Shown: one piece after another, positions 2,975 to 19,081 of the stretch
Layout of the letters: each line of letters starts with the position of its first letter
Position numbering within the stretch: the stretch's first letter is position 1
Origin: a virus
Length of the DNA stretch: 41,415 bases
Reading direction: 5' to 3' (one strand)
Virus record (IMG/VR): IMGVR_UViG_3300019124_000015
Coordinates: 1 to 41,415 of that record
The notes under the pieces: generated by a model
Told to the model about the DNA's origin: nothing
What the model saw: the letters and a program-made list of their open reading frames with translations, nothing else
The model's database searches: none
Program-made: the position numbers and the translations under genes

Positions 2975-2975
2975 C

Positions 2976-3836
2976 ATGGCATGGTTCCACCATCCCAGGG
3001 CCGGCCTGCTCATCCCGCCGCCGTTCCAGTTCACCCTCACCGGGTCAAACCTGAACCTGCGGAGCGCAGCCGTCGCGGCGGGGTGGGACCAGCGGTCGCC
3101 GGTGCGCGCCATCGTCAGCGGGGCCATCACCGGCACCGCAGGCAACGTGGCGCTCACCGTCAACGGCAGCTTCCCCTGGGTCCCCGAGCTGGTCATCCAG
3201 TCGGGCGGCTCCATCACGGGCGGCGTAGGCAGCACCGGCTCGACCGGCTCCACCGGCACGCACGGTGCATCCGGCGCTGGCGGTCCCTACGGCTCCTCCG
3301 CAACCGGCTACGCCGGCTCCTCCGGTGGTGGCGCAGGCAACGGCGGGCCGGGTGGCTCGGGCGGCTCGGGCGCGACCGCGTTGTCCGTCAGCGTACCGCT
3401 CATCGTGGACAACCAAGGGTCCATCGTGGGCGGGCCGGGTGGCTCTGGCGGTGCCGGGGGTTCGCCCGGTGTGCGCTCAGGGGGTGGCGGCGGCAGCGGC
3501 GGGGGCATGGCCTTTTTCGACTCGAAGAACGGCGGCTGGACGTACTACTACGGCGGCGCTGGTGGCAACGGCTACGGCGCGGCGGTTGGTGGCCCGTGGG
3601 GCGGCGGCGCTGGAGTGAACCCGTACGGCGGGACCGGTGGCCAGGGCGGCTACTCGGCTGGCGCTGGCTATCCGGGCTCGGGCAACCAGTGGTACGGCGG
3701 CGGCTCTGGTGGTGCCGCAGGCGCTGCTGGTAGCAGCGGCGCGAACGGCGCAGCAGGCGCTCGCGGCAACGCCGTCAGCGGCAACACCCACATCATTTGG
3801 AAGAACACAGGAACCCGTACAGGGAACATCGCATGA
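2976..3836 (+). CDS. Glycine-rich tail fibre tip or adhesin candidate
   Basis: Protein of 286 aa. After about 90 beta-like residues, residues 85-270 are dominated by Gly, Ser and Ala with repeated GGxGGxGG runs broken by short hydrophobic strands such as VSVPLIVDNQGSIVGGPGG. This composition resembles the polyglycine-II helix sandwich of T-even gp38-type receptor-recognition proteins, which cap long tail fibres. Its place directly after the short fibre gene, with the start one base past the fibre stop, supports a fibre-tip role. The comparison is by composition and context only; I see no diagnostic motif. The C-terminus (NTHIIWKNTGTRTGNIA) looks like a terminal strand. Confidence 0.6.
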   Translation: MAWFHHPRAGLLIPPPFQFTLTGSNLNLRSAAVAAGWDQRSPVRAIVSGAITGTAGNVALTVNGSFPWVPELVIQSGGSITGGVGSTGSTGSTGTHGASGAGGPYGSSATGYAGSSGGGAGNGGPGGSGGSGATALSVSVPLIVDNQGSIVGGPGGSGGAGGSPGVRSGGGGGSGGGMAFFDSKNGGWTYYYGGAGGNGYGAAVGGPWGGGAGVNPYGGTGGQGGYSAGAGYPGSGNQWYGGGSGGAAGAAGSSGANGAAGARGNAVSGNTHIIWKNTGTRTGNIA

Positions 3837-4207
3837 GCAACGTGAAGTTCAAGATCGTCGAGGTCCACCCGCAGGAGCACTCCGTGGTGGTCCGCTTCTA
3901 CACCGACCGCATCACCGAAGACATGCTGGCGGTGGACATCGACCCGATGACCCGGCAGATTCGCCGCTGCCGCACCGACTACAACATCAACCTGCCGGTG
4001 CCCGCCCCGACCGGCGCGGAGCTGGACGCCTTCCTCTCTCGATTCGCGCCCGTCGAGTGGCTGCGGACGATGGAGGCCGTGCTGGACCCGGCGGTGGACA
4101 CCTCGCTGGACTCCATCCCGGTCGGCGTGGAGCGCATCGTCACGCTCCCCGAGTTCCCGGCAACGTCCCCTGACGCGGGCATCACCCTGAGCGAGCAGAC
4201 GGCGTGA
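3833..4207 (+). CDS. Unknown protein in the tail fibre operon
   Basis: Protein of 124 aa, not recognised. ATG 3833 was chosen because it overlaps the previous stop (ATGA) and follows a purine-rich AGGGAA; a longer in-frame start at 3797 would run into the adhesin. It opens with beta-like SNVKFKIVEVHPQEHSVVVRFYTD, then a Pro/Asp-rich region without Cys or membrane segments. Its position between the fibre tip and the lysis-packaging genes would suit a fibre assembly factor, but nothing in the sequence proves this. Confidence 0.7.
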   Translation: MSNVKFKIVEVHPQEHSVVVRFYTDRITEDMLAVDIDPMTRQIRRCRTDYNINLPVPAPTGAELDAFLSRFAPVEWLRTMEAVLDPAVDTSLDSIPVGVERIVTLPEFPATSPDAGITLSEQTA

Positions 4208-4728
4208 GGAACTCTCACTTCTTCGCGTTCGGCTGGCGCATCGACCGCCACGAGCTGGACGCGGGTGAGGTGATGAAGGTCCGGTACGCGGCAGACACGC
4301 GCGCTGACCGCGCGGTGAACTGGTCGCTCTGGGTGAAGGGCGGCGCGGACTGCATCGAGCATCCGCCGTCCCTCGCCGGGTCCCGGATGGTGGCCCGCAA
4401 GGTGGCAGGCGATTGCAGCAAGCGGGACTACCCGGGCAAGGTGTGGCCGGCTGGCACGTACCGGTGGAAGGCGTTCGCGCCGACCGCATTCGTGTGCGTG
4501 AACGCGGCCATGCAGCCGGACAAGAAGGCCCCACCGAAGCTCGACATCGAGTTCGTCCCCGCCGGCGGCACGCTGAAGCTCCGCAAGGGGCAGCTTGTCG
4601 TCGTCGTCGAGGGACGGTTGGACCTGGGCGCGGCCCCTGCTGCCATCGAGGTCACCTCCGAGCAGCGCGAGGTGACTGCCCTGGCCGACACCCATCTCTT
4701 CATCTTTCCGCACCGCCGACCGCAGTGA
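4204..4728 (+). CDS. Unknown protein, beta-rich
   Basis: Protein of 174 aa with a GTG start overlapping the previous TGA. Not recognised. It is rich in alternating hydrophobic and charged strands (MKVRYAADTRADRAVNWSLWVKGG; KLRKGQLVVVVEGRLDLG) and has three cysteines. No signal peptide or membrane segment is seen. The tight coupling on both sides places it in the late fibre-lysis-packaging operon. It may be a structural or assembly protein. Confidence 0.7.
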   Translation: MRNSHFFAFGWRIDRHELDAGEVMKVRYAADTRADRAVNWSLWVKGGADCIEHPPSLAGSRMVARKVAGDCSKRDYPGKVWPAGTYRWKAFAPTAFVCVNAAMQPDKKAPPKLDIEFVPAGGTLKLRKGQLVVVVEGRLDLGAAPAAIEVTSEQREVTALADTHLFIFPHRRPQ

Positions 4729-5159
4729 CCGCCCCCATCCGCCTCCGCGAGGTGGATGGGAAGGCAGAGGACAAGGCGGCGCTCCTGCGCTACCTCCAGC
4801 TCACGGCGCTCCCAGGGGACATCCCAATGGAGACCGATGAGGGCTGGTGGTGGGTCGCCTACGACAACGGCGTGCCGGTGGCGTTCGCCGGTCTCACCGA
4901 GTCCAAGCAGTTCCCCAACGCGGGCTACCTGTGCCGCGCGGGGGTGCTGCCGACTCACCGAGGCCGCGGACTCCAGCGCCGGCTCATCGCCGCCCGCGAG
5001 CGCAAGGCTCGCAAGCTCGGGATGGTGGCCCTCGTGTCCGACACCTACGACAACCCCGCCTCCTCGAACAACCTCATCGCGTGTGGCTTCCGCATGCACG
5101 AACCGCTCGTGCGGTACGGCGCGGAGGGCACCAACTACTGGCGCAAGCCACTCACCTGA
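4725..5159 (+). CDS. GNAT-family N-acetyltransferase
   Basis: Protein of 144 aa with a GTG start overlapping the upstream TGA by two bases. The acetyl-CoA pyrophosphate-binding loop is clear: AGVLPTHRGRGLQRRLIAARERKARKLG (about residues 71-98), preceded by strands carrying VAYDNGVPVAFAGL and followed by YDNPASSNNLIACGFRM, the usual late motif in which an Asn/Ser helix precedes the GF strand. It would acetylate a small molecule or protein; the substrate is unknown. It is separate from the second GNAT-like gene at 34969, which sits in the T7 gene 13 place. Confidence 0.8.
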   Translation: MTAPIRLREVDGKAEDKAALLRYLQLTALPGDIPMETDEGWWWVAYDNGVPVAFAGLTESKQFPNAGYLCRAGVLPTHRGRGLQRRLIAARERKARKLGMVALVSDTYDNPASSNNLIACGFRMHEPLVRYGAEGTNYWRKPLT

Positions 5160-5161
5160 AC

Positions 5162-5539
5162 ATGAAAGCCCCCCTCATGGCAACCGAACCCGTGACCGGC
5201 GGCATCGCCGCTGGCGTGCTGGTGAAGGCCGGTCTCGCCGGCCTGATCGGCCTCCTCGGCGGCGCAATCATGGCCGCGTTCGATCCGCCGCAGTCCCGGA
5301 AGGAGCTGTTCCTCCAGGGCGCGGTGGCCGGCACCGGCTCGCTGATCTTCGGCGGCGCGGTCGCGGCCCTGGCCGTCAAGTACATCACCGTCATCCCGCC
5401 CTCCGAGCTGACCCTGCCGGCGTACTTCGTCACGGGTGCCTTGTCGTGGGGCGTCTTCGGCGCACTCGCGAAACTGCGCGGCCTCCTGGGCGAGCGCATC
5501 GTGAACTTCTGCGCCGACAAGCTGGGCCTGAAGAAGTGA
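5162..5539 (+). CDS. Holin candidate (T7 gp17.5 position)
   Basis: Small membrane protein of 125 aa, or 120 aa from the second ATG at 5177. Predicted membrane segments are IAAGVLVKAGLAGLIGLLGGAIMAAF (about 15-40), GAVAGTGSLIFGGAVAALAVKYITVI (about 53-78) and a third around LPAYFVTGALSWGVFGALAKL. The C-terminus is basic (NFCADKLGLKK). In T7 the holin lies immediately upstream of the small terminase gene, exactly as here. It should form the inner-membrane holes that release the amidase encoded at 18153. Assignment rests on topology and position. Confidence 0.72.
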   Translation: MKAPLMATEPVTGGIAAGVLVKAGLAGLIGLLGGAIMAAFDPPQSRKELFLQGAVAGTGSLIFGGAVAALAVKYITVIPPSELTLPAYFVTGALSWGVFGALAKLRGLLGERIVNFCADKLGLKK

Positions 5540-5760
5540 GCAAGGCCAGCACCGAGGCGCTGGACGCCCTGCATGGGGCGCTGGCGATGGAGCTGGCCCG
5601 CCGGCTGCGCGAAGGCACGGCGACCGCCGCCGACCTGAACGTGGCCCGCCAGTTCCTCAAGGACAACGGCGTGGAGCAGCCGAACCTCCCCGGCACTCCG
5701 CTTCGAGCCCTCACCGAGTCCCTCCCGTTCGCCAACGAGGGGGCCAACTTCTCCCACTGA
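5536..5760 (+). CDS. terS: Terminase small subunit (DNA maturase A)
   Basis: Protein of 74 aa with a GTG start overlapping the holin stop. The core LHGALAMELARRLREGTATAADLNVARQFLKDNG is the typical T7-type small terminase helix-turn region, which recognises concatemer DNA and recruits the large subunit. It is a little shorter than T7 gp18 (89 aa). The large subunit gene starts 5 bases after its stop. Confidence 0.85.
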   Translation: MSKASTEALDALHGALAMELARRLREGTATAADLNVARQFLKDNGVEQPNLPGTPLRALTESLPFANEGANFSH

Positions 5761-5765
5761 GCTGA

Positions 5766-7544
5766 ATGCCACCGGCAAACCTGTCGGAGGTCGCGGTCGC
5801 CTCGAAGCTGGTGACCAACGACCCTGTACTCGCGGACTTCCGCAACTTCATCTACCTCGTCTGGAAGCACCTGGGCCTGCCGGCCCCGACGCGCATCCAG
5901 TACGACATCGCCTCGTACCTCCAGCACGGCCCGAAGCGGGCCATCATCGAAGCATTCCGAGGCGTGGGCAAGTCGTGGGTGACCTCCGCCTTCGTCTGCT
6001 GGTGCCTGCTCCGAGACCCCCAGCTCAAGATCATGGTGGTCTCCGCGTCCAAGCAACGCGCCGATGACTTCTCCACCTTCACGAAGCGGCTCATCGCAGA
6101 GATGCCGCTGCTCCAGCACCTCCGCGCCAAGCCCGGCCAGCGGGACTCGTCCATCGCCTTCGATGTGGGTCCTGCGCGTCCTGACCACTCGCCTTCCGTC
6201 AAGTCCGTCGGCATCACGGGCCAACTGACCGGCTCGCGCGCCGACATCATCATCGCGGACGACGTTGAGGTGGTGAACAACTCCCTCACGCAGACGATGC
6301 GCGACAAGCTGTCGGCGCTGGTGAAGGAGTTCGACGCCATCCTGAAGCCGCTGGAGTCGAGCCGGATCATCTACCTGGGCACGCCCCAGACGGAGATGAC
6401 CCTCTACAACCAGCTCACGCAGCGGGGCTACCAGCTCCGCGTGTGGCCGGCGAGGTTCCCCAGCAAGGCCGCGATGGGCCGCTACGGCGACACGCTCGCG
6501 CCGCTGCTGCTGGAGATGCTGGAGGCCGACCCCAGCCTGGGCGATGCGTTCAACGGGCGCGGGGCCCCGACCGACCCCGATCGGTTCTCCGACCTGGACC
6601 TCCAGGAGCGTGAGGCGTCCTATGGGCGCTCCGGGTTCGCCATGCAGTTCATGCTGGACCCGAGCTTCTCGGACGCCGACCGCTACCCGCTGAAGCTGTC
6701 CGACCTCATCGTCCTGGACTGCGACCCCAAGGTGGCCCCCATCAAGGTCGTCTGGGCGTCCAGCCCCGAGCTGGCGCGTACCGACCTCCCCACGGTGGGC
6801 CTCGCGGGGGACCGGCTGTACCGCCCGATGTGGGTGGCCAAGGAGAACTACGTGCCGTACGGCGGCGTGGTCATGGCCATCGACCCCTCGGGCCGGGGCA
6901 GCGACGAGCTGGGCTACGCCATCGTGGCGTTCCTGAACGGCTACCTCTTCGTGCTGCGTGCGCGCGGCCTGAAGGGTGGCTACTCGGACGCCAACCTGGA
7001 GCTGCTCGCCAAGGAGGCGAAGCGGTACGGCGTGAACGAGGTCATCGTGGAGTCCAACTTCGGTGACGGCATGTTCACCCAGCTCCTGATGCCGTTCCTG
7101 GCTCGGATCCACCCCGTCCACGTGGAGGAGGTCCGCCACTCCCAGCAGAAGGAGCGGCGCATCATCGACACGCTGGAGCCGGTGATGAACCAGCACCGTC
7201 TCATCGTGGACAGCCGGGTCATCCTGGACGACTACGAGAACTACAACGGCTACAGCCAGGAGCAGGCGAGCCGCTACCAGCTCTTCTACCAGCTCACCCG
7301 GGTGACCCGCGACAAGGGCTCCCTGGCGAAGGACGACCGCCTGGACGCCCTCGCCATCGCGGTGGGCTACTGGGTCGAGGTGATGGACCGCGACACCCTC
7401 CGCATCCTGGAGGAGCAGCGGGAGGTCGCCCTGGCGGCGGAGCTGGACGCCTTCATGGAGGCCGCGACTGGCCGGCGCACCGAGCGCCTGACGATGGTCG
7501 ACGAGTTCTCCGAGGGGCTTGAGCTGTCCCTGGGCCTGTTGTAG
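5766..7544 (+). CDS. terL: Terminase large subunit (DNA maturase B, T7 gp19-like)
   Basis: Packaging motor of 592 aa that cuts concatemers and pumps DNA into proheads. Walker A is FRGVGKSW (residues 64-71), Walker B IIIADD (161-166), and a SSRIIYLGTPQ coupling motif follows near 200. The C-terminal RNase H-like nuclease begins at VVMAIDPSGRGSDE (about 369-382), with a later VIVESNFGDGMF and a KDDRLDALAIAVGYW ending typical of the family. Length matches T7 gp19 (586 aa). It is the last gene of the late operon and is followed by a terminator. Confidence 0.96.
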   Translation: MPPANLSEVAVASKLVTNDPVLADFRNFIYLVWKHLGLPAPTRIQYDIASYLQHGPKRAIIEAFRGVGKSWVTSAFVCWCLLRDPQLKIMVVSASKQRADDFSTFTKRLIAEMPLLQHLRAKPGQRDSSIAFDVGPARPDHSPSVKSVGITGQLTGSRADIIIADDVEVVNNSLTQTMRDKLSALVKEFDAILKPLESSRIIYLGTPQTEMTLYNQLTQRGYQLRVWPARFPSKAAMGRYGDTLAPLLLEMLEADPSLGDAFNGRGAPTDPDRFSDLDLQEREASYGRSGFAMQFMLDPSFSDADRYPLKLSDLIVLDCDPKVAPIKVVWASSPELARTDLPTVGLAGDRLYRPMWVAKENYVPYGGVVMAIDPSGRGSDELGYAIVAFLNGYLFVLRARGLKGGYSDANLELLAKEAKRYGVNEVIVESNFGDGMFTQLLMPFLARIHPVHVEEVRHSQQKERRIIDTLEPVMNQHRLIVDSRVILDDYENYNGYSQEQASRYQLFYQLTRVTRDKGSLAKDDRLDALAIAVGYWVEVMDRDTLRILEEQREVALAAELDAFMEAATGRRTERLTMVDEFSEGLELSLGLL

Positions 7545-8292: not shown

Positions 8293-8299
8293 TCCCCCC

Positions 8300-8316
8300 C
8301 GAGGCTCGGGGTTTAG
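8300..8316 (-). promoter_or_regulatory. Phage RNA polymerase promoter candidate, minus strand (P6)
   Basis: On the minus strand it reads CTAAACCCCGAGCCTCG, identical over 17 bases to the five plus-strand copies, then a run of G instead of CTC. It points at the only minus-strand gene (7722-8123). The match between motif orientation and gene orientation is the main reason for calling the motif a promoter. Confidence 0.68.
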
Positions 8317-8479
8317 AGGGCAATCCTGTCGTGGGCCTCGTGGGGGTCCCGATGTTTGCTACAAAAATCTGAGCGGGTATCGGATCAGCCCAGACGGGCC
8401 TTTCCCCCCGTGGGGGTGCCCTGGCGGGCGCACGCGGTGGCCGCGCAGGGGCCGCGCTGGCCGCTCGTGGGCCGCACGG

Positions 8480-8574
8480 TGGCACCACTCGTGGCACCAC
8501 ACGGCACCACACGCCGCTAAGTGCTTGATTTGCAAGGGATGCCGACGGATTGAGAATCCGGCACCACGGCACCA
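8480..8574. repeat. Cluster of [T/C]GGCACCA repeats with a tRNA-like stem-loop
   Basis: Copies are TGGCACCA at 8480 and 8492, and CGGCACCA at 8502, 8559 and 8567. They are the inverse of the TGGTGCCA repeats next to attP. Between them is CGGATTGAGAATCCG (8546-8560), a perfect 6-bp stem with a 3-base apex that also reads like a tRNA anticodon arm. This could be a second set of integrase or excisionase sites, or a relic of another attachment site. Confidence 0.5.
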
Positions 8575-8850
8575 GTGGGCCGCAGAGGCCACCACACGGC
8601 GCACCACACGCGCCACGCGCAGGAGCTGCAAGGGCTCGGGCTGCTGATGTTTGCCCGTTTGCCTTTGCGCTCCTGTTTTTTGTCTCCAGGGCCACCACAC
8701 GGCCACCACGAGGCCACCACACGGCACACGGCCACGTTAGGCCACACGGCCACGTTAGGGCCACCACACGGCACGCATACAGCCATCGCACGCGCCCGGC
8801 ATGGTGCCTGTATCCACCACCACACGCCACGCGCACACGTGGGCCACACG
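8565..8850. repeat. Degenerate CCACCACACGG repeat tract
   Basis: C/A-rich low-complexity sequence with many CCACCACACGG-like units (around 8588, 8690, 8712, 8762, 8818). CACACGGCCACGTTAGG occurs at 8725-8741 and again at 8743-8759, period 18. T7 carries short repeat arrays beside its terminal repeats, so a packaging-terminus role is possible but unproven. Confidence 0.55.
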
Positions 8851-8906
8851 CTGCCCGATTGGTGCCACTCATGGGCCGCGCCACACGTGCCACGGATTGC
8901 TGCCAC

Positions 8907-8935
8907 TTGACAAACATTTCCGCTTCTGGAACAAT
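8907..8935 (+). promoter_or_regulatory. Host-type (sigma70) early promoter with an embedded palindrome
   Basis: A perfect -35 box TTGACA (8907-8912), a 17-base spacer and a -10 candidate AACAAT (8930-8935, 4 of 6). It lies 37 bases before the first early gene. The spacer contains TTCC-GCTTCT-GGAA (8918-8931), a member of the operator-like family, so a protein bound there would block host RNA polymerase. Confidence 0.75.
8918..8931 (+). promoter_or_regulatory. Operator-like site O1 (TTCC-N6-GGAA) in the early promoter
   Basis: TTCC (8918-8921), centre GCTTCT, GGAA (8928-8931). It fits the consensus TTCC-RCTNCY-GGAA shared with 13822, 15362 and 16407, and it overlaps the spacer and the first two bases of the -10 box. 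Confidence 0.6.
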
Positions 8936-8971
8936 TCGCCCTGTTCGCAACGCACTACAGGAGACCAGCAA

Positions 8972-9721
8972 ATGGCACTGTCCAAGGAACCTACCGGCTA
9001 CACCATCTGGGAAGGCTTCAGCCTCCTCGATGGCTCTCCCATCGCTGTCGTGGCCCTGCTCGGCAGCTCGAATCGGAAGACTGGAGACATGGTCCAGACC
9101 TACATCATCCGCCGCGACATGAAGCCCACCGAGGCCGTCCGCACGGGCGCTGATGCGGCCATCTGCGGCGACTGCAAGCATCGCCCGTTCAACGGTGGCG
9201 CGTGCTACGTGGTGGTGGCCCAGGGGCCCACCGTGGTCTGGAAGGGGCTCGTGGCGGGCAAGTATCCGCGCAAGGATGCCGCCGAGGTGGGCCGCATGGT
9301 GGCCGGGCGGATGGTGCGCCTGGGCACCTATGGCGATCCTGCGGCTGTACCTTTCCACATCTGGAATGAATTGGTGGCCCACGCCGCCGGGCGCACTGGC
9401 TACAGCCACCAGTGGCGCAATGAGACCCTGCCTCTGGCCCACCGTCAGGCCATCGCGCGGCTGACCATGGCGTCCGTCGACAACCTCGAAGAGGCCCAGC
9501 AAGCCCGCGCCCAGGGTCTCCGCTATTTCCGCATCCGCGTGGCATCCGAGCCCGTCCAGCGTGGCGAGTTCGTGTGCCCAGCGTCCGACGAAGCGGGCAA
9601 GCGCAAAACGTGCGCCACGTGCGGCGCGTGCAGTGGGTCCGAGAAGCCCACTGCGGCGAGCCCCGTCATCGTGGTCCACGGCGCGAAGGCAAGCCGCTAC
9701 GTGGCCCAACGCTCGGCCTAA
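8972..9721 (+). CDS. First early protein, unknown, two cysteine clusters
   Basis: Protein of 249 aa. ATG 8972 follows an AGGAGA ribosome site and is the first good start after the early promoter. Two possible zinc clusters are visible: CGDCKHRPFNGGACY (about residues 60-74) and CPASDEAGKRKTCATCGACSG near the C-terminus (about 205-226). The middle is mixed helix and strand with no enzyme motif I recognise. As the first gene read by host polymerase it would be a candidate for host takeover or anti-restriction, by position only. Confidence 0.82.
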   Translation: MALSKEPTGYTIWEGFSLLDGSPIAVVALLGSSNRKTGDMVQTYIIRRDMKPTEAVRTGADAAICGDCKHRPFNGGACYVVVAQGPTVVWKGLVAGKYPRKDAAEVGRMVAGRMVRLGTYGDPAAVPFHIWNELVAHAAGRTGYSHQWRNETLPLAHRQAIARLTMASVDNLEEAQQARAQGLRYFRIRVASEPVQRGEFVCPASDEAGKRKTCATCGACSGSEKPTAASPVIVVHGAKASRYVAQRSA

Positions 9722-9764
9722 TCGTTCCGTTTCCGTAACCGTTCCACTCACAGGAGGACACCAC

Positions 9765-9863
9765 ATGCCCACTTTCGACGACCTGCTGGAGCTGGCCCGC
9801 GAGGCCGAGCTGGAGGCGCTGAGCGCCGCCCTTTGGGACCTGCTCACCGGGGAGGCCCAGTGA
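9765..9863 (+). CDS. Very small acidic early protein
   Basis: Peptide of 32 aa beginning MPTFDDLLELAREAELEAL and ending LTGEAQ, probably one amphipathic helix. A strong AGGAGG site lies 8 bases before the ATG, and the stop overlaps the next start (TGATG). Not recognised. Its strong ribosome site and coupling argue that it is translated. Confidence 0.6.
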   Translation: MPTFDDLLELAREAELEALSAALWDLLTGEAQ

Positions 9864-10270
9864 TGCGAGTCGCCGCCTACTGGAACCTGCACCGGCACTG
9901 CTGGAGCCTGAAGGCTCTGGAGGGCCCAGACAAGGGCCGCGTGAAGTACCACGCGAGCGCCTTCCAGCTCACGGACTGCCAGTTTCGCGTGAGCGAGGCC
10001 GGACGGCAGCGCGTGCTGCGCGAGAAGCGCAAGAACGTCCACGCCTACGTGGTCGGGCGGCTGGCCGGGTGGGTCGACCTCGATGGGGACCAGGGCCAGT
10101 GGGGCACCGACTGCCCAGGCGAGGCCGAGGGCGTGCCGGTCACCTACAACCCGTACCGCGCGCCCACCTTCGAGTCCGCCGACCTCCTGCGGACGCCCAT
10201 GCAGGCCGCGCCGCGCGTGGTGGCCGTGGGCCGTCGCGTGGTGGCCTGCCACGGGGAGGCCGTGCAATGA
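9863..10270 (+). CDS. Unknown early protein
   Basis: Protein of 135 aa, start coupled to the preceding stop. Opens MRVAAYWNLHRHCWSLKALEGPDKGRVKYHASAFQLTDCQFRVSEAGRQRVLREKRKNVHAYVVGRL, a pattern seen in small phage proteins of unknown role. It is basic in the N-terminal half, without membrane segments, and the C-terminal 40 residues are Val/Arg-rich. The next start overlaps its stop (ATGA). Confidence 0.75.
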   Translation: MRVAAYWNLHRHCWSLKALEGPDKGRVKYHASAFQLTDCQFRVSEAGRQRVLREKRKNVHAYVVGRLAGWVDLDGDQGQWGTDCPGEAEGVPVTYNPYRAPTFESADLLRTPMQAAPRVVAVGRRVVACHGEAVQ

Positions 10271-10467
10271 GCCGCTTCGCCTACGAGGTCGCGCCCACGC
10301 GGCCCACGCTGGAGGGCTTCGAGGTCTGCACCGAGGCCGAGGCCACGCAGTGGTCGGTCTACCGCAGGCCCACCGAGGGCCAGGAGCGGCTGGCCGAGTG
10401 GGTGGCCGACTGCGCCGAGCGTGCGAACGCCGAGAGGCTGGCCGCGTGCCTGGGGAGGGCTGCGTGA
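10267..10467 (+). CDS. Unknown small early protein
   Basis: Protein of 66 aa, mostly helical (EGQERLAEWVADCAERANAERLAACLG). ATG overlaps the upstream TGA, and its own TGA overlaps the next ATG, so it is part of a translationally coupled run of small early genes. Not recognised. Confidence 0.68.
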   Translation: MSRFAYEVAPTRPTLEGFEVCTEAEATQWSVYRRPTEGQERLAEWVADCAERANAERLAACLGRAA

Positions 10468-10664
10468 TGGCCCAGGTCTGCTTCCGCTGCCGCCGCCGCG
10501 TGCCCCTGAGCGCCGCAGGCACCCGCTACACGTGCCTCTGTGGCCGGACCTTCCCGGTGCCGCGCCTGTCGCCCGAGTTCGAGGAGGAGCTGGCGGTCTA
10601 CCGGGACCAGTGCCGCCGCGCGGCCCAGCGCATGGGGGTCGGACAGCCCAGGCGCATCTGGTGA
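10467..10664 (+). CDS. Small zinc-ribbon-like early protein
   Basis: Protein of 65 aa, start coupled to the previous stop. MAQVCFRCRRRVPLSAAGTRYTCLCG gives a CxxC...CxC pair typical of a small zinc ribbon, followed by a helical tail (SPEFEEELAVYRDQCRRAAQRMG). Small zinc-ribbon proteins often bind nucleic acid or an RNA polymerase; no specific role can be assigned. Confidence 0.68.
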   Translation: MAQVCFRCRRRVPLSAAGTRYTCLCGRTFPVPRLSPEFEEELAVYRDQCRRAAQRMGVGQPRRIW

Positions 10665-10684
10665 CGCCCAGAGCTGCGCCCGTA

Positions 10685-10703
10685 GGGCACCCGCGTGGTG
10701 CCC
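10685..10703 (+). other. Hairpin between early genes
   Basis: GGGCACC (10685-10691), loop CGCGT, GGTGCCC (10697-10703). There is no T run after it, so it is more likely an RNA processing or stabilising hairpin than an intrinsic terminator. It lies in the only sizeable gap of the small early gene run. Confidence 0.4.
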
Positions 10704-10743
10704 CTCGGGGGCCGCTTTGAGCCCGCAACAGGAGAACCGACAC

Positions 10744-10986
10744 ATGGACGAGAACACCTACATGGACGCCGCCCGCGAAGCCTGGGCGACCCGCTGCCGC
10801 GAGCTGGGGCTGCGGAAGGGGACCGTGAAGCGCGAGGACCAGCTCGCCGCGTTCCTCCAGGGCGTGGTGGCCGTGGCGACCGCTGCCGGCCTGATGCCCA
10901 TGCACCGCGCCCAGATGGTCGCCTTCATGGTGGCCGTGGGCCGGGGCGAGGAGCTGCTGGCCCCGCGCGTGACGGAGGGCGCGTGA
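10744..10986 (+). CDS. Unknown small early protein
   Basis: Protein of 80 aa preceded by AGGAGAA. It is predominantly helical (MDENTYMDAAREAWATRCRELGLRKG, then a hydrophobic AAFLQGVVAVATAAGLM helix). The hydrophobic helix contains no charged residues over about 15 positions, but I do not think it spans a membrane. The stop overlaps the next start. Confidence 0.7.
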   Translation: MDENTYMDAAREAWATRCRELGLRKGTVKREDQLAAFLQGVVAVATAAGLMPMHRAQMVAFMVAVGRGEELLAPRVTEGA

Positions 10987-11264
10987 TGGCTGCCAAGACC
11001 CGCGCCTACCGCGTCCGCGACCTGTCGGTGGACGAGGAGCCCACGACCTACGTGGGGACCTTCGCCCAGGCCCGCGAGTTCGTCCGCGAGAAGGCCCCCA
11101 TCGACCGCGACTCCGTGGTCGTGGCCGAGGTCGAGGTCGCGAGCGACAAGGACGGCCTCCTCCAGGCCCTCAACGGCGAGCCGGTGGAGTTCGTCAAGCG
11201 CCAGTGGATCGGCACGAAGCGCGGCGGACTGCGCCAAACGCACGACGAGCAGGGGCGGCTCTGA
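10986..11264 (+). CDS. Unknown small early protein
   Basis: Protein of 92 aa coupled to the preceding gene (TGATGG). A beta-alpha pattern is seen: TRAYRVRDLSVDEEPTTYVGTFAQAREFVREKAP, then SVVVAEVEVASDKDGLLQALNGEPVEFVKRQWIGTKRGG. The C-terminus is basic. Not recognised; no catalytic motif visible. Confidence 0.7.
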   Translation: MAAKTRAYRVRDLSVDEEPTTYVGTFAQAREFVREKAPIDRDSVVVAEVEVASDKDGLLQALNGEPVEFVKRQWIGTKRGGLRQTHDEQGRL

Positions 11265-11311
11265 CAGCCCACCTGACCCATCCCGTTCAACTCACACAAG
11301 GAGCCCACAAC

Positions 11312-11719
11312 ATGACTGCATTCGCACTCCGCACCATCGACGTTGCACACCGGCAAGCCGTCCTCGACGCCCAGACCTGCATCAGCCCGCGCGTGCTGGG
11401 CGAGGCGCTGCGCCGCACCGTCCGCCTGGGGCGGGCCACCATCTACCGCGAGACCGAGGAGCGCGCCCGCTGGCGCAAGGTCTTCGAGGTGGCCCAGGAG
11501 CTGCCCGACACGGTCCTTGTGGTCACGGCCTTGAAAACGGATGGGTCGACCCGCACCTTCAACTGCCGAGCTGTCCCGGGCGGTGACTACACCCGCCGGT
11601 ACGCGCTCGTCATTGATCTGGAGAAAGGAGACTACCGGCGCATCAACCTGGATGGGATTGTCAAGGTGACCATGGAGACCCACGCAGAGGGCCTGTCAAG
11701 CCCCGGGTTGGGTGAGTGA
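11312..11719 (+). CDS. Unknown early protein
   Basis: Protein of 135 aa with an AAGGAG ribosome site 8 bases before ATG 11312. It begins with about 40 helical residues, then an Arg-rich helix (LRRTVRLGRATIYRETEERARWRKVF) and three or four beta strands. Not recognised. It ends just before the control region of the MarR-type gene. Confidence 0.72.
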   Translation: MTAFALRTIDVAHRQAVLDAQTCISPRVLGEALRRTVRLGRATIYRETEERARWRKVFEVAQELPDTVLVVTALKTDGSTRTFNCRAVPGGDYTRRYALVIDLEKGDYRRINLDGIVKVTMETHAEGLSSPGLGE

Positions 11720-11793
11720 GGGTGGTGAGCCGCTCGGACGCGCCGGCCACAGGCGCGATGGGAGGAGGGGCTCACCTTGCGGGCTTTACTGCC

Positions 11794-11812
11794 TACAATT
11801 CCGCTACCGAAA
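11794..11812 (+). promoter_or_regulatory. -10-like box and operator-like site O2 before the MarR-type gene
   Basis: TACAAT (11794-11799, 5 of 6 to TATAAT) is overlapped by TTCC-GCTACC-GAAA (11799-11812), one mismatch from TTCC-RCTNCY-GGAA. I see no good -35 box at 16-18 bases upstream, so a promoter here would be weak or activator-dependent. Position 27-45 bases before ATG 11839 would suit autoregulation. Confidence 0.45.
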
Positions 11813-11838
11813 CCATTCCTACAGGAGCCCCAGAGCAA

Positions 11839-12237
11839 ATGGCATCCACCAACAAAGAGACCCCGACCACACGGGTGGCGCTGGTCCACATCTTCCTGAA
11901 GCAGCTTCAGGACTTGACCGAGGACAACACAATGCCCACGCAGCAAATCCTGCTGCTGACCGCGCTGTACGTCCGAGGACAGATGAACCAGGGCGACCTG
12001 ACGAAGGAAACCGGGGTGGCTATGAGTAGTTGCAGCCGGAACATCGCCAAGCTCGGAAAGGGCACGTTCGGCACCCCAGGCATGGGGTACGTGACCCAGG
12101 AAGAGGACGAGCGGGACCGGCGCATCAAACTGGTCCGGCTCACTCCGAAGGGCAAGGCCCTGATCGAGGAAATCCTGGAGCGAGTGAGCAGGGCCTTCGG
12201 AGACAAGGTCCATGCTGTTCGTACATCGCCTGTATAG
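11839..12237 (+). CDS. MarR-type winged-helix regulator, lysogeny regulator candidate
   Basis: Protein of 132 aa. Residues 36-100 form a MarR winged helix: QQILLLTALYVRGQMNQGDLTKETGVAMSSCSRNIAKLGKG is the helix-turn-helix with recognition helix around SSCSRNIAKL, and DERDRRIKLVRLTPKGKALIEEI is the wing plus the start of the dimerisation helix. An N-terminal helix precedes. MarR proteins bind palindromes as dimers. It lies between the early genes and integrase, where temperate phages keep their repressor, and no CI-type repressor is present elsewhere. ATG 11839 follows ACAGGAG; a longer start at 11716 would add a low-complexity tail and run through the control region. Confidence 0.82.
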   Translation: MASTNKETPTTRVALVHIFLKQLQDLTEDNTMPTQQILLLTALYVRGQMNQGDLTKETGVAMSSCSRNIAKLGKGTFGTPGMGYVTQEEDERDRRIKLVRLTPKGKALIEEILERVSRAFGDKVHAVRTSPV

Positions 12238-12529
12238 AAGGAATTGGTCGCACGTAGATGTGTATGTGGTTGATGGGACTCTCGTCGTCGAGCTGGGGAG
12301 CTGGTCGATAGAGGTCAGTCCCCCGAACCTGGGCAACCTGAAGAGGAACTGGTTGAAGAGCGCAGTAGCCGCGAGCCTGACGCTCTACGTGGTCGCGGAT
12401 GTCTGCATCGATTGGAAGATGAGCCATGAAGGTACGTTACTTCGAGAAGCGTGGGCAATGGTGGATGGACTTCAAGGACGCGGCTGGCTCCCGCCGTCGT
12501 GTTCCGACGGGGTGTGCATCGAAGAGTGA
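12212..12529 (+). CDS. Possible small protein overlapping the integrase start
   Basis: Open frame of 105 codons. The part before the integrase start reads naturally (VDVYVVDGTLVVELGSWSIEVSP, then KSAVAASLTLYVVADVCIDWKM), and otherwise 188 bases would be empty. However, it overlaps integrase by 104 bases and the MarR-type gene by 26, and has no clear ribosome site. Doubtful. Confidence 0.28.
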   Translation: MLFVHRLYRRNWSHVDVYVVDGTLVVELGSWSIEVSPPNLGNLKRNWLKSAVAASLTLYVVADVCIDWKMSHEGTLLREAWAMVDGLQGRGWLPPSCSDGVCIEE

Positions 12530-13556
12530 GGCGGAGCGCACCGCGCCCAGCTTGCTGGCCAAGTACCTCGCGGGGGCTCCTGCCCCTGCGGCGCGCGCGC
12601 CCTCGATTTCCGCTGAGCTTCCGGTGGCGGAAGCGGTGCAGCCCCGGAAGGGCTCCACCATTACGTTTGCGGAAGCCTTCCAGAAGGCGAAGCGCGAGCG
12701 GGACGAGTGGGCGCAGGCCAAGGACCGCAAGGGCATCGAGTCCAAGTGGCTCCAGGTCTCGGCCTACTGGGGCGCGGACACGCCGCTGGCGAAGGCCAAC
12801 TACGACACCGTCCTGCGGTGGCGCGAGGCCATGCTGAAGGAGGAAGGCAAGCGCAAGGGCACCACGCTCTCGCACTCGGCCATCAACCACCGGCTGTCGT
12901 TCGTGTCCGTGCTGCTGGAGGTCTGCCGCCTGCCGCCACACGGCGTGAAGCACCTCTCGGTGGCGAACAACAAGCGCATGCGCCGCGTCCGCGAGGACGA
13001 GCTGCAAGCCATGCTCTCCTGGCTGCTCGCTAACCACCATCTGAAGGGAGCGACCTCACTGCACGACCTCGTCCAGGTGGCCCTACTCACGACCGCGCGC
13101 CAGGGCGAGCTGCTCGACCTGCCGTGGCGGGATGTGTACTTCGACCGCAGCACCGTGGTGTTCCGGGACACGAAGAACGACGACTCGCGGGAGGTTCTGC
13201 TGTCGCCGCCCGCCCTTCGCATCCTGGAGCGCCGCCGGGACCTGGGCCTGACCGGCCCCTTCGCGGACCTGGACAAGCACCGCATCACGAAGCTCTGGGC
13301 CAAGGCCCGGGAGGCCCTGGGGCTGGCGGACGACCCGGAGTTCGTCTTCCACGTGGCGACCCGCCACGAGGGCCTGTCCCGGGCCGGCGAGACCGGGGCC
13401 AACACGTTCCTCATCCAGGCCCTCGGCGGGCACCGCTCGGTCGAGGCAGCGAAGCGGTACGTGAAGCCCGAGGCCCACGCCCAGCGCATGCTGGTCGAGG
13501 CCATCGCGAACTACCGCAAGCCTTCTTCCGATGTTGCAACCGTTACGGAGGCGTGA
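12426..13556 (+). CDS. int: Tyrosine recombinase (phage integrase)
   Basis: Protein of 376 aa. Residues 1-60 are an arm-binding-like domain (MKVRYFEKRGQWWMDFKDAAGSRRRVPTG); 70-180 a SAM-like core-binding domain. The catalytic domain shows Arg225 in TTARQGELLDLPW, Lys250 in DTKNDDSRE, the GGHRS box (His336) and the nucleophile Tyr345 in KRYVKPEA. Box II reads FHVATRHEGLSR (H309, R313), one residue longer than the usual HxxR, or with Val in the His place. The stop lies 20 bases before the tRNA-Asn core, the normal int-attP arrangement. It should insert the phage into, and with help remove it from, a host tRNA-Asn gene. Confidence 0.95.
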   Translation: MKVRYFEKRGQWWMDFKDAAGSRRRVPTGCASKSEAERTAPSLLAKYLAGAPAPAARAPSISAELPVAEAVQPRKGSTITFAEAFQKAKRERDEWAQAKDRKGIESKWLQVSAYWGADTPLAKANYDTVLRWREAMLKEEGKRKGTTLSHSAINHRLSFVSVLLEVCRLPPHGVKHLSVANNKRMRRVREDELQAMLSWLLANHHLKGATSLHDLVQVALLTTARQGELLDLPWRDVYFDRSTVVFRDTKNDDSREVLLSPPALRILERRRDLGLTGPFADLDKHRITKLWAKAREALGLADDPEFVFHVATRHEGLSRAGETGANTFLIQALGGHRSVEAAKRYVKPEAHAQRMLVEAIANYRKPSSDVATVTEA

Positions 13557-13576
13557 AAGATGCAGAAGCGGAACTA

Positions 13577-13625
13577 TGGACTGTTAATCCGTAGGTCCCT
13601 GGTTCGAGCCCAGGTCGGGGAGCCA
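13577..13625 (+). other. attP core: 3' part of a tRNA-Asn gene
   Basis: 49 bases from the anticodon arm to the 3' CCA-like end of tRNA-Asn: GGACTGTTAATCC (anticodon GTT in loop CTGTTAA), variable region, T arm CCTGG-TTCGAGC-CCAGG, acceptor strand TCGGGGA and discriminator GCCA. No D arm or 5' acceptor strand lies upstream, so this is not a complete tRNA. Such a fragment next to an integrase gene restores the host tRNA on integration. Confidence 0.88.
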
Positions 13626-13672
13626 AACACAGAGCGGGCCGCAGCGGTAGCGGCCACTCTCGAAGCCCACCG

Positions 13673-13805
13673 TGGTGCCAAGTTGGTGCCACGGTTGGTG
13701 CCAAAACTCCCACCCCACCGCCCCCTCTCGCAACGCGCGAAGCCAGCATCCATGCGGCTTTCCGCGTGGTGCCACTGGTGCCAGTTGGTGCCAAAAGTGG
13801 TGCCA
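13673..13805 (+). repeat. Seven TGGTGCCA direct repeats, integrase arm-site candidates
   Basis: Identical octamers start at 13673, 13684, 13696 and at 13767, 13776, 13786, 13798: two clusters of three and four with 9-12 base spacing, about one helical turn. They begin 48 bases from the attP core. Direct repeats beside the core are what arm-binding domains of tyrosine integrases recognise. Single copies with related sequence lie at 8860 and, inverted, at 8480-8574. Confidence 0.72.
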
Positions 13806-13817
13806 TTTTTCGCCCGA

Positions 13818-13839
13818 ATGCTTCCACTCCCGGAAGCAT
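13818..13839 (+). promoter_or_regulatory. Operator-like palindrome O3 in the RNA polymerase leader
   Basis: Eight-base arms ATGCTTCC (13818-13825) and GGAAGCAT (13832-13839) around ACTCCC. A nearly identical copy, centre ACTACC, lies inside the RNA polymerase gene at 15358. A further minus-strand site TGCC-GCTACC-GGAA (13856-13869) follows 17 bases on. As RNA it would form a stable hairpin, but no T tract follows. Confidence 0.62.
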
Positions 13840-13891
13840 CCGGCACCGCCTGCCTTTCCGGTAGCGGCACGGGTTTCTGACCCGGCCCAGC

Positions 13892-13911
13892 CTAAACCCC
13901 GAGCCTCGCTC
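13892..13911 (+). promoter_or_regulatory. Phage RNA polymerase promoter candidate P1, before its own gene
   Basis: CTAAACCCCGAGCCTCGCTC, 69 bases before the RNA polymerase ATG. The same 20 bases are at 16441, 16492, 18593 and 27866. Length and spacing fit T7-class promoters, and the TAAAnCCC start resembles the promoter of Pseudomonas phage gh-1. A promoter here would give positive feedback on the polymerase. Confidence 0.7.
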
Positions 13912-13917
13912 CCGGGG

Positions 13918-13938
13918 GGCTGAGCCGAAGGCGAAGCC
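13918..13938 (+). other. Leader hairpin downstream of P1
   Basis: Nested hairpin: outer GGCT (13918-13921) with AGCC (13935-13938), inner GCC-GAA-GGC, separated by GA/GA. Nearly the same structure follows promoter P5 (27888-27909), so it is likely a transcript 5' stem-loop. Confidence 0.55.
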
Positions 13939-13979
13939 TCCTGTGGAGCCCTTGAAGACCACCTTCTGGAGCCCACTAG

Positions 13980-16403
13980 ATGACCTCGAAACTGACCGCC
14001 CGTGCCAACATCGAAGCCCAGCTTGAGCTGGAAGCCCACTCCGTCCGCCTGGGCGTGGAGAAGTACCGCGCCATCCTGGCCGAGGACGGCAACGCCAGCC
14101 TGCCGCCGGGCCAGCAGCTCCTGAAGGCCGCGATGCTGCCGATGGTGGAGGCCCTGCGGGGCTGGCTGGAGGAGACCCGCAACGGGCTCGCCAGCCGCAA
14201 TGCCGGCGTCTTCTACTTCCTCGACGGCCTCGACCCCGAGGCGGTCGCCTTCATCACCGCCCAGTCCTGCCTGTCCCGGCTGCACGAGGAGCCCCGGGTG
14301 GTGAACTGCGCGCTGCTCATCACCGAGCGCCTGGAGGAGACCATCAACCTCGACGCCATCGCCCAGGCCAACCCGAAGCTGGCCGACAAGATCAGCAAGC
14401 GAGTCGCCGCCATGAGCTACGACCGGAACCGCATCGCCTTCATCCGCAAGGGGGCGGAGCTGGTCGATGTGAAGGTCATCAAGTGGGACGAGTCCGCCAA
14501 GGTGCGGGTGGGCTCCCTGCTGATCGAGATGTTCGCCCAGGCCACCGGCCTCATCGCCATCGAGTCCGAGCAGCTCGGCGCGCGGCGGGAGGTCATGCGT
14601 ATCCGGCCCACCGAGAGCTGCCGCCGCTGGCTGGAGCAGTCGCACGCCCGCTGCGAGCTGCTGTCGCCCGTCCGGCTGCCGATGGTCTGCATGCCCCGGC
14701 ACTGGACCAACCCGTTCAACGGCGGCTACCTGACCAAGGAGCTGCGCCAGCCCCTCGTCAAGACCCGCAACAAGGGCTACCTGTCCACGCTGAAGGACTG
14801 GGACATGCCGTGGGTCTACGCCGCCGTGAACGCGCTCCAGGACACCCAGTGGGCCGTCAACGAGCGGGTCTACGAGGTGGTGCGCGAGCTGTGGGAAGGC
14901 AGCCGCGTCGAGGCCGGACTGCCCAGCCGCGACGACCTCCCGCTGCCGGCCAAGTCCTGGGGTCCCGACGACCAGCCGGACCCGGCGGTGCTGAAGGCGT
15001 GGAAGGTCGAGGCCGCGAAGGTCTACGAGAAGAACCAGCGCCTCGTGTCGAAGCGCGTCCAGGTCATCCAGAAGCTCAACGTCTGCGAGGAGATGATGGC
15101 TCGGGGCAACCGGTTCCACTACGTCTACAACCTGGACTGGCGTGGCCGCATGTACCCGGTCGCCAGCGCGCTCTCCCCGCAGGGCGACGATGTGAGCAAG
15201 GGACTCCTGCGCTTCGGTGAGGGCCACCGCCTGGGCGACGACGGGGCCTACTGGCTCGCCATCCACGGGGCCAACAGCTTCGGCGTCGACAAGGTCTCCT
15301 TCGAGGAGCGCATCGCCTGGGTGCAGGCGAACGAGGAGCGCATTCTTGAAGCGGCCAATGCTTCCACTACCGGAAGCATGTGGTGGGCCGAGGCGGACAG
15401 CCCGTTCGTGTTCCTGGCCTTCTGCTTCGAGTACGCCGCGCTCCAGCGGTGGGTCGACGAGGGCAACGCCCAGGAGGACTTCGTGTCCCACCTGCCGGTG
15501 GCCTTCGACGGTGCCTGCAACGGGCTCCAGAACTTCAGCGCGATGCTGCGCGACCCGGTGGGTGGCCGTGCCACGGGCCTCGTCCCCGACGAGAAGCCGG
15601 CGGACATCTACACCCAGGTCGCCCAGGCTGCCCAGGCCATCATCGACCGGGACGCGGCTGCCGGCCACCCGGTGGCCCACCGCTGGGTCGGCCGCATGAC
15701 CCGCAAGCTGGCGAAGCGCAACACCATGACGGTGCCCTACGGGGTGACCCGGCGTGGCATGCGCGACCAGCTCTACGCCGAGCTGACGGACAGCGAGGGG
15801 CACGAGCGCATCGAGGACGCCGAGTACCTGGCTGCGGTGAACTTCGAGGCCATCGGCAACGTGGTCGTGGCGGCTCGCCGCGCGATGGACTGGCTGCGCG
15901 AGGCCGCGAAGGTGGCCGCGAGCAACGACCTCCCCGTGCGGTGGACCACCCCGGCCGGCTTCCTGGCCGTGCAGGACTACCGCACCGAGGTCGGCCAGGA
16001 GCTGGACTTCATGGTGCTGGGCCGGCGCTACCGCCTGATGGTGCAGCGGGACGGCGACAAGCTGAACTCGCGCAAGCAGGCGCTGGGCATCAGCCCGAAC
16101 TTCGTCCACAGCCTGGACGCGGCTCACCTGATGCGGACCATCCTGTTCTGCGCCCAGGACGGCATGACCTCGTTCGCCATGATCCACGACAGCTACGGCT
16201 GCCACGCCGGCCTCGCCACTCGGATGCGGGACAACCTCCGCGCCGCGTTCGTCGAGCAGTACACGCCGAACGTGCTGGAGAAGTTCCGCAACGAGCTGGC
16301 CGAGCAGCTCCCCGAGAAGCTGCGGGACGAGCTGCCACCGCTGCCCGAGATGGGCGACCTGGACCTGGAGGCCGTCAAAGGCTCGGAGTATTTCTTCGCC
16401 TGA
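13980..16403 (+). CDS. Single-subunit DNA-directed RNA polymerase (T7 gp1-like)
   Basis: Protein of 807 aa (T7: 883). Hallmarks in order: NLDWRGRMYP (Asp386), motif A with catalytic Asp510 in VAFDGACNGLQNFSAMLRDPVGG, motif B Arg575-x3-Lys579-RNTMTVPYG, SLDAAHLMRT, and motif C HDSYG with catalytic Asp737. The C-terminus ends YFFA, like the FAFA foot of T7 polymerase. It transcribes the middle and late genes from its own promoters. A promoter copy lies just upstream, and two follow at 16441 and 16492. An operator-like palindrome is embedded in frame (15358-15379, coding NASTTGS). ATG 13980 follows TGGAG. Confidence 0.98.
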   Translation: MTSKLTARANIEAQLELEAHSVRLGVEKYRAILAEDGNASLPPGQQLLKAAMLPMVEALRGWLEETRNGLASRNAGVFYFLDGLDPEAVAFITAQSCLSRLHEEPRVVNCALLITERLEETINLDAIAQANPKLADKISKRVAAMSYDRNRIAFIRKGAELVDVKVIKWDESAKVRVGSLLIEMFAQATGLIAIESEQLGARREVMRIRPTESCRRWLEQSHARCELLSPVRLPMVCMPRHWTNPFNGGYLTKELRQPLVKTRNKGYLSTLKDWDMPWVYAAVNALQDTQWAVNERVYEVVRELWEGSRVEAGLPSRDDLPLPAKSWGPDDQPDPAVLKAWKVEAAKVYEKNQRLVSKRVQVIQKLNVCEEMMARGNRFHYVYNLDWRGRMYPVASALSPQGDDVSKGLLRFGEGHRLGDDGAYWLAIHGANSFGVDKVSFEERIAWVQANEERILEAANASTTGSMWWAEADSPFVFLAFCFEYAALQRWVDEGNAQEDFVSHLPVAFDGACNGLQNFSAMLRDPVGGRATGLVPDEKPADIYTQVAQAAQAIIDRDAAAGHPVAHRWVGRMTRKLAKRNTMTVPYGVTRRGMRDQLYAELTDSEGHERIEDAEYLAAVNFEAIGNVVVAARRAMDWLREAAKVAASNDLPVRWTTPAGFLAVQDYRTEVGQELDFMVLGRRYRLMVQRDGDKLNSRKQALGISPNFVHSLDAAHLMRTILFCAQDGMTSFAMIHDSYGCHAGLATRMRDNLRAAFVEQYTPNVLEKFRNELAEQLPEKLRDELPPLPEMGDLDLEAVKGSEYFFA
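15358..15379 (+). promoter_or_regulatory. Operator-like palindrome O4 inside the RNA polymerase gene
   Basis: Arms ATGCTTCC and GGAAGCAT around ACTACC, differing from the 13818 copy at one base. It falls in frame in a variable-looking NASTTGS segment, so the protein can tolerate it. An intragenic site could act as a roadblock or looping partner. Confidence 0.55.
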
Positions 16404-16406
16404 CGT

Positions 16407-16420
16407 TTCCACTCCCGGAA
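16407..16420 (+). promoter_or_regulatory. Operator-like site O5 after the RNA polymerase gene
   Basis: TTCC-ACTCCC-GGAA, starting 4 bases after the RNA polymerase stop and 21 bases before phage promoter P2. Outer arms are less complete than in the 13818 and 15358 copies. Confidence 0.55.
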
Positions 16421-16440
16421 GGTTTCCGGGTCTGCAAGGT

Positions 16441-16460
16441 CTAAACCCCGAGCCTCGCTC
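16441..16460 (+). promoter_or_regulatory. Phage RNA polymerase promoter candidate P2
   Basis: Exact 20-base copy of CTAAACCCCGAGCCTCGCTC, followed by TGCTCC. First of a tandem pair, 51 bases apart, ahead of the 16548 gene and SSB. Confidence 0.72.
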
Positions 16461-16491
16461 TGCTCCGAAACGGGCGGGCGGGGCTCGCGGC

Positions 16492-16511
16492 CTAAACCCC
16501 GAGCCTCGCTC
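16492..16511 (+). promoter_or_regulatory. Phage RNA polymerase promoter candidate P3
   Basis: Exact 20-base copy of the motif, second of the tandem pair, 37 bases before ATG 16548. The duplication suggests high expression of the SSB-endonuclease-amidase set. Confidence 0.72.
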
Positions 16512-16547
16512 TGCACTCACGCCGAGCCTTCCACCAACCCACCAACC

Positions 16548-16814
16548 ATGAACCGCGACCAGTTCAACTCCACGACCTCGCACCGCACGCTGGAGGACGC
16601 CTTCCTCCTGCTCGACCGAGTGCAGGAGCTGCCGCCCCATCGGCGGGTCCTGGCAGTCGTCCTGTTGTTCCGCCTGCTGCAGCAACGCCTGGGCCTCGAT
16701 GTGTCCGAGCTGCTGAACAAGGCCGACCGCATCGCGTACGACGCTGACTACCGGTACTTCCCGCACATCAGCGTCGTACGCGCCTACATCGACAACGAAA
16801 TCGCCAACCGCTGA
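16548..16814 (+). CDS. Unknown small protein after RNA polymerase
   Basis: Protein of 88 aa, mostly helical: RTLEDAFLLLDRVQELPPHRRVLAVVLLFRLLQQRLGLDVSELLNKADRIAYDADYRYFPHISVVRAYIDNEIANR. No cysteine and no full membrane segment. Located where T7 has genes 1.5 to 2, directly ahead of SSB and behind two promoter copies. Not recognised, but the clean reading and 7-base gap to SSB argue for a real gene. Confidence 0.75.
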   Translation: MNRDQFNSTTSHRTLEDAFLLLDRVQELPPHRRVLAVVLLFRLLQQRLGLDVSELLNKADRIAYDADYRYFPHISVVRAYIDNEIANR

Positions 16815-18676: not shown

Positions 18677-19081
18677 ATGAACACCCTCAACACCAACCGC
18701 ACCCAGATCGAGACCATCCGTCAGCACCTCCTCCAGGGCAAGTCCATCACGCCGGCCACCGCCATGCTGGTGTACGGCATCAGCCGCCTCTCGTCCGTCA
18801 TCGAGCGGCTGCGGAACCGTGGCATGGACATCGTCACCGTGATGAAGCGGGACGAGATGGGTCGCCAGTACAGCGAGTACAAGCTCGCCCCCGAGCTGAA
18901 GCGCGGCTGCTCCGTGGTCGTGAAGCGCGGCCACGGCATCGGCCTGCCGAAGTGGGTCCGCCGCTCGAAGGCTGCCCGCGTGGTGGGCCTGTACCAGGAC
19001 GTTGCCCACGTGGAGTTCGTGCGCGGCACGCGCATCGAGGTCCACCCGCTGAACGTGAAGGAGCTGGCCTGTGTCGCGTGA
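18677..19081 (+). CDS. Winged helix-turn-helix-like protein
   Basis: Protein of 134 aa. Residues 8-52 (TQIETIRQHLLQGKSITPATAMLVYGISRLSSVIERLRNRGMDIVTVM) look like a small winged helix of the kind found next to phage primase genes: a helix, ITPATAMLVYGI, then a recognition helix SSVIERLRNRG. The rest is basic with beta strands (CSVVVKRGHGIGLPKW). It may regulate transcription or replication. The next gene starts with GTG 11 bases before its end. Confidence 0.72.
   Translation: MNTLNTNRTQIETIRQHLLQGKSITPATAMLVYGISRLSSVIERLRNRGMDIVTVMKRDEMGRQYSEYKLAPELKRGCSVVVKRGHGIGLPKWVRRSKAARVVGLYQDVAHVEFVRGTRIEVHPLNVKELACVA

Follow-up and report, generated by a model that had tools for sequence, protein, structure and literature searches.

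How might a temperate phage that carries its own T7-like RNA polymerase (RNAP) keep that enzyme silent in a lysogen? The question is raised by the IMG/VR virus record IMGVR_UViG_3300019124_000015, all 41,415 bases of which we analysed and here call the window, where a family of short palindromes is dispersed from the early promoter to just beyond the RNAP gene. We propose, with a probability of about 0.8, that a MarR-family lysogeny repressor encoded at 11839 uses these dyads as its DNA operators, as predicted from sequence comparison and a model of the protein.

A sequence-only reading of the window had described four exact copies of the 14-mer TTCCRCTNCYGGAA, all on the + strand, at 8918, 13822, 15362 and 16407, and one-mismatch copies at 11799 (+) and 13856 (-). 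All six were found where it had put them, but its list was incomplete, as two sites that are each exact for the simpler dyad TTCCR-N4-YGGAA had been missed (9353 and 12619). The total is eight sites, six exact dyads and two near-exact ones (11799 and 13856):

8918 to 8931, + strand: predicted operator TTCCGCTTCTGGAA; exact match; fills the spacer of the early promoter.
9353 to 9366, + strand: predicted intragenic operator TTCCACATCTGGAA in the first early gene; exact TTCC-N6-GGAA.
11799 to 11812, + strand: predicted operator TTCCGCTACCGAAA over the marR -10 box; one mismatch; a third half-site TTCC lies 17 bases on.
12619 to 12632, - strand: predicted intragenic operator TTCCGGTGGCGGAA in the integrase gene; exact TTCC-N6-GGAA.
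13822 to 13835, + strand: predicted operator in the RNAP leader with 8-base arms; exact match; 70 bases upstream of phage promoter 1.
13856 to 13869, - strand: predicted operator in the RNAP leader; one mismatch; 36 bases upstream of phage promoter 1.
15362 to 15375, + strand: predicted operator copy within the RNAP gene; exact; matches the leader site 13822 over 22 bases with one difference.
16407 to 16420, + strand: predicted post-RNAP operator; exact; starts 4 bases past the RNAP stop, with a third half-site TTCC at 16424; 34 bases upstream of phage promoter 2.

Five of the six exact copies point the same way, as do two of the three intragenic sites (9353, 12619 and 15362), which have the + orientation. 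The long arms that had been noticed on two exact sites are near-identical in 13822 and 15362 only (ATGCTTCC...GGAAGCAT), and the latter site falls in a variable stretch of the RNAP protein.

The enrichment of the family is real. When every 4-mer dyad with a spacer of 0-14 was scanned with no sequence chosen beforehand, TTCC-N6-GGAA ranked first genome-wide, with six copies seen against 0.37 expected (Poisson p 2.7e-6, with no correction for how many dyads were tried). When up to two mismatches are allowed, the 14-mer has 17 matches, compared with 2.5 +/- 1.7 in dinucleotide shuffles, and none of 100 shuffles reached 17; a control pattern with the order reversed had no match in the genome. All six exact TTCC-N6-GGAA copies lie in 8,918-16,420, which is 18% of the genome. 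The late genes contain no exact site, and just four two-mismatch matches lie beyond 16.4 kb. Thus, the remark of the sequence-only reading that no such sites were noticed in the structural region holds.

Are these sites conserved? We compared 144 non-redundant related loci, which were retrieved with a seven-member RNAP alignment; single queries with the MarR protein or a lone RNAP retrieved none. A regular expression for the window's own dyad found few matches in these relatives because the sequence diverges, and an analysis based on position was therefore needed. Centres of perfect dyads with 5-base arms peak at +9/+10 after the RNAP stop, where 19 loci have one against 0.52 expected per offset, and a second peak stands at +18/+19. 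Half-sites are repeated in inverted order at 9-11 bases and in direct order at exactly 17 (z 4.5). The position-wise consensus after RNAP starts with TTCC at 5-8, continues with GGAA-like bases at 15-18 and has a third element, TNC, at 23-25; it is close to the window's own TTCC..GGAA..TTCC. The first 70 bases past RNAP contain the heptamer WTCCRCT in 16 loci, compared with 2.9 expected, and have it on the opposite strand in 2, compared with 2.6. Each phage's post-RNAP dyad also recurs in approximate form, and the density of such copies in the RNAP leader is about three times that downstream. A strong dyad after RNAP is missing from most of ten mainly lytic control phages (T7, ICP3, phiPSA2, a K1F relative and others), and in T7 a phage promoter occupies this position. 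Half-sites that are about 10 bases apart fit MarR dimers.

The same dyad scan applied to LUZ100, a Limnohabitans phage, Mycobacterium phage jiawei and BB8 found in each its own dyad at corresponding places. In LUZ100, a phage with mapped promoters, the dyad GCGCA-N5-TGCGC (operator-like sequence GCGCATAAGATGCGC) lies within the annotated host promoters P1 and P2, the same place as site 8918 in the window's early promoter, and again directly after RNAP. The Limnohabitans phage has two early-region copies of TCTCG-N4-CGAGA, a further copy near the RNAP start and another 5 bases past the RNAP stop, and jiawei has CCATG-N4-CATGG after an early gene and 4 bases past the RNAP stop. Related prophages exist as well. 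The nearest are L014 (Rhizobacter) and L016 (from a Comamonadaceae genome), with RNAPs each 65% identical to that of the window. L014 has TCCCGTA-type sites in the leader, after RNAP and in the early region; L016 has TCCG...CGGA-type sites in these three places, before marR and within the RNAP gene. Loci of the L094-L102 group, with RNAPs about 50% identical, share with the window the half-site TTCCACT in the leader and after RNAP, and partly before marR. Dyads stand at the same positions in relatives. The 14-mer itself is not conserved: the conserved feature is the position and geometry, and the sequence varies by phage.

Two further arrangements were seen among these loci. In the RNAP leaders of L094, L096, L098 and L102, a TTCCACT-type site covers part of the probable ribosome binding site, and another stands at a promoter-like distance from a TATA(G/C)T box. 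In L151, ten perfect copies of TGTCTCAWTGAGACA precede RNAP (77-6420) and one follows it, the densest operator-like array that we saw.

If the dyads are operators, which protein reads them? Among 34 non-redundant phages, operator similarity tracked MarR similarity after RNAP similarity was taken into account (partial r 0.26, p 0.0005). When the integrase was added (27 phages), the value for MarR was 0.25 (p 0.0005) and that for the integrase was -0.03. These results suggest that, from phage to phage, the operator has changed in sequence along with MarR. Such joint divergence would be expected if the operator defines the immunity type. The protein at 11839 scores 29.8 bits against Pfam MarR_2 (cutoff 27), and its model (pLDDT 86.5) matches MarR-family structures with TM values up to 0.77. 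The proposal that the palindromes form an operator set is thus supported by the absence of exact sites from late genes, by the dyads at the same positions in relatives and by a similarity that follows MarR and not RNAP, the integrase or a second regulator, the winged-helix protein HTH_39.

That second regulator, encoded at 18677, is the basis of the best surviving alternative, in which the sites are operators of HTH_39 or of an unrecognised small protein. HTH_39 gives this module a second DNA-binding protein, is found in many relatives and, besides MarR, was the one winged-helix protein that turned up in the scanned region. We nevertheless regard this alternative as improbable, since operator similarity followed MarR and not HTH_39 (0.35 versus 0.02); HTH_39 is also encoded downstream of phage promoters, and we would not expect it to be present in a lysogen.

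It is slightly less probable still that the dyads act as RNA, as hairpins through which the RNAP transcript is processed, attenuated or switched in its translation. The predominance of one orientation among the exact copies, and the overlap with the probable RNAP ribosome binding site in the L094-L102 group, would suit such a role, and 13822 and 15362 would fold as RNA far better than shuffles (z -5.2 and -4.5). However, 8918, 9353, 13856 and 16407 fold no better than shuffles, and the LUZ100 dyads lie within mapped promoters. The hairpin function that the sequence-only reading had offered as an alternative fails as a general explanation because 8918 sits between the -35 and -10 elements of a promoter and 11799 gives no hairpin.

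Core or arm sites for an integrase or excisionase are a very unlikely identity for the dyads: some do lie near the presumed attP (13584-13625), but others are found at a distance of 5 kb, in a promoter, and of 3 kb, past RNAP, the sequence whose repeats resemble arm sites is TGGTGCCA instead, and integrase similarity did not predict operator similarity once MarR was included. Operators of a host regulator such as LexA, on which some temperate phages rely, have equally little to recommend them, because in the nearest relatives, Burkholderiales prophages of Rhizobacter and Comamonadaceae, these places are occupied by different dyads, a pattern that one host regulator shared among them would leave unexplained.

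Several observations weigh against MarR operators. A perfect dyad is centred in the tested post-RNAP interval in just 29 of the 144 loci, about a fifth (control mean 5.1), and many loci carry imperfect dyads. The controls were not all clean: phiL7 has GTGCTTGACAAGCAC and three others reach four of five pairs, and one single dyad is therefore weak evidence. We did not find a clear site in the mapped marR promoter of LUZ100, P3. The leader and post-RNAP sites in the window do not cover the phage promoter cores but lie upstream of them. Finally, at 0.25-0.35, the partial correlations are modest, and a Mantel test can give optimistic results when the sequences are related.

The genes and promoters among which the sites lie are the following:

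8907 to 8935, + strand: predicted sigma70-like early promoter TTGACA-17-AACAAT, the sole promoter-like match in 8401-16800.
11795 to 11800, + strand: -10-like box TACAAT of the marR promoter, from sequence; a good -35 was not seen.
11839 to 12237, + strand: MarR-family winged-helix protein, the proposed repressor; Pfam MarR_2 and HTH_27 above cutoff, PHROG 9665 (transcriptional regulator) and a fold match.
12426 to 13556, + strand: tyrosine integrase, from PHROG and Pfam searches.
13584 to 13625, + strand: 3' part of a tRNA gene, the presumed attP core, from sequence; identities of 14 and 11 bases with the tRNA at the end of prophage L014.
13892 to 13911, + strand: phage RNAP promoter-like repeat 1, a copy of CTAAACCCCGAGCCTCGCTC.
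13980 to 16403, + strand: T7-like RNAP (PHROG 414, Pfam RNA_pol).
16441 to 16460, + strand: phage RNAP promoter-like repeat 2, a copy of CTAAACCCCGAGCCTCGCTC.
16492 to 16511, + strand: phage RNAP promoter-like repeat 3, a copy of CTAAACCCCGAGCCTCGCTC.

The 20-base repeat CTAAACCCCGAGCCTCGCTC has five exact copies (13892, 16441, 16492, 18593 and 27866), compared with 0.01 expected genome-wide. At 18593 and 27866 there is no exact or one-mismatch operator site. A degenerate sixth copy lies on the - strand at 8297-8316, opposite to the others, with three mismatches that are all in the last bases. The HTH_39 gene extends from 18677 to 19081 (E 3e-9), and 71 fetched loci have homologues. A protein of the mycobacteriophage L5 gp82 family is encoded at 9863-10267 (E 9e-36), though the nearest phage relatives are Burkholderiales prophages. 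The repeat TGGTGCCA occurs 11 times, against 1.7 expected, with seven copies in the leader between the presumed attP and RNAP (13673-13805) and three near 8.5-8.9 kb (8480-8867); these are possibly integrase arm sites. GGTGCC is also abundant in the RNAP leaders of L014 and L016. The non-coding stretch ahead of the early promoter contains repeats of GCCACCACACGGC (8493-8828). The record may be a complete genome with an arbitrary cut point, because a 150-base direct repeat stands at both ends (1-150 and 41266-41415).

Based on this arrangement, we propose a model for how a MarR repressor would act. In a lysogen, a repressor dimer on the spacer of the early promoter would keep host RNA polymerase off the early genes, and a dimer on the marR promoter would lead to autorepression; at these two promoters, repression of initiation by MarR dimers is likely. 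At the leader, intragenic and post-RNAP sites, the repressor may block polymerases that are heading into or out of the RNAP gene, so that the positive loop between RNAP and the phage promoters would not be started. At the phage promoters, the action may be either direct repression or a roadblock.

Four prophages (L014, L015, L016 and L027) are bounded by a direct repeat, with one copy ahead of the RNAP leader at one end and the other copy on the integrase and marR side at the opposite end. Integration in these prophages cuts the phage genome between the integrase and RNAP; the RNAP gene is therefore separated from the early promoter and marR, and the leader operators stay with it. The tRNA fragment between the integrase and RNAP leads us to expect the same split in the window. 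Tentatively, at a little under even odds, we suggest that temperate T7-like phages have in common an old operator that consists of three half-sites, immediately follows the RNAP stop and has diverged with MarR into many immunity specificities. With the leader and intragenic copies, the repressor would form a stoperator-like roadblock on dyads, and the RNAP/promoter loop would be unable to start in a prophage already split by integration from the early promoter.

How do these sites compare with known systems? The order marR-integrase-RNAP is common to the window, LUZ100, HTVC200P and RHEph01. Like MarR-controlled temperate T7-like phages (Autographiviridae), the window has a single-subunit T7-like RNAP with its own promoter-like repeats and, upstream of it, a MarR-type gene beside a tyrosine integrase, with sites around the promoter upstream of RNAP. 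According to the LUZ100 paper (PMC10134795), MarR sites flanking that promoter were proposed by Boeckman et al. (2022, Virology), and MarR is proposed to hold RNAP off in the lysogen. The general idea of MarR control is known from that proposal, as cited there. In the window, MarR binding around the RNAP promoter is predicted from the presence of sites and their covariation with MarR. Compared with the proposal as cited, the sites are named and counted, and they are also found between the -35 and -10 elements of the early promoter, across the marR promoter, within three genes and immediately past RNAP. Four features appear to go beyond the proposal in that form: a post-RNAP operator of fixed position and three half-sites, copies located in the spacers of early promoters, divergence that parallels that of MarR, and copies inside genes.

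In behaviour, the sites most resemble the stoperators of Cluster A mycobacteriophages such as L5 and Bxb1. Stoperators are asymmetric, are 13 bases long, number up to about 30 in a genome and are bound by an unrelated repressor that acts as a monomer (PMC6550527, PMC9283540). In both cases one repressor has, or in the window is proposed to have, many dispersed sites, some in promoters, some intragenic and mostly in one orientation, and the site motif and the repressor diverge jointly into immunity types, which for the window and its relatives is a proposal. The window does not belong to this class by site type or repressor family. Its eight 14-base sites are TTCCR-N4-YGGAA dyads with an asymmetric centre, not asymmetric 13-base sites, and are confined to the early and RNAP region; its candidate repressor is MarR-like, not of the L5/TipsyTheTRex type, and a block to elongation by this candidate is a proposal. 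The solved operator complexes of MarR-family proteins (MarR 5h3r, OhrR 1z9c and HpaR 7el3) share with the window protein the winged-helix fold, half-sites about one turn apart and a site over the regulator's own promoter. They differ from it in that the window protein is proposed to be a phage repressor and its predicted operators have an extra third half-site at +17.

In sum, a phage-specific operator at a conserved position would provide directly testable binding sites in many phages, and the L151 array is a good candidate for experiment. Cognate pairs of repressor and operator beside T7-type polymerases may serve as expression tools. For the biology of these phages, the sequence of the operator would predict which of them share immunity.

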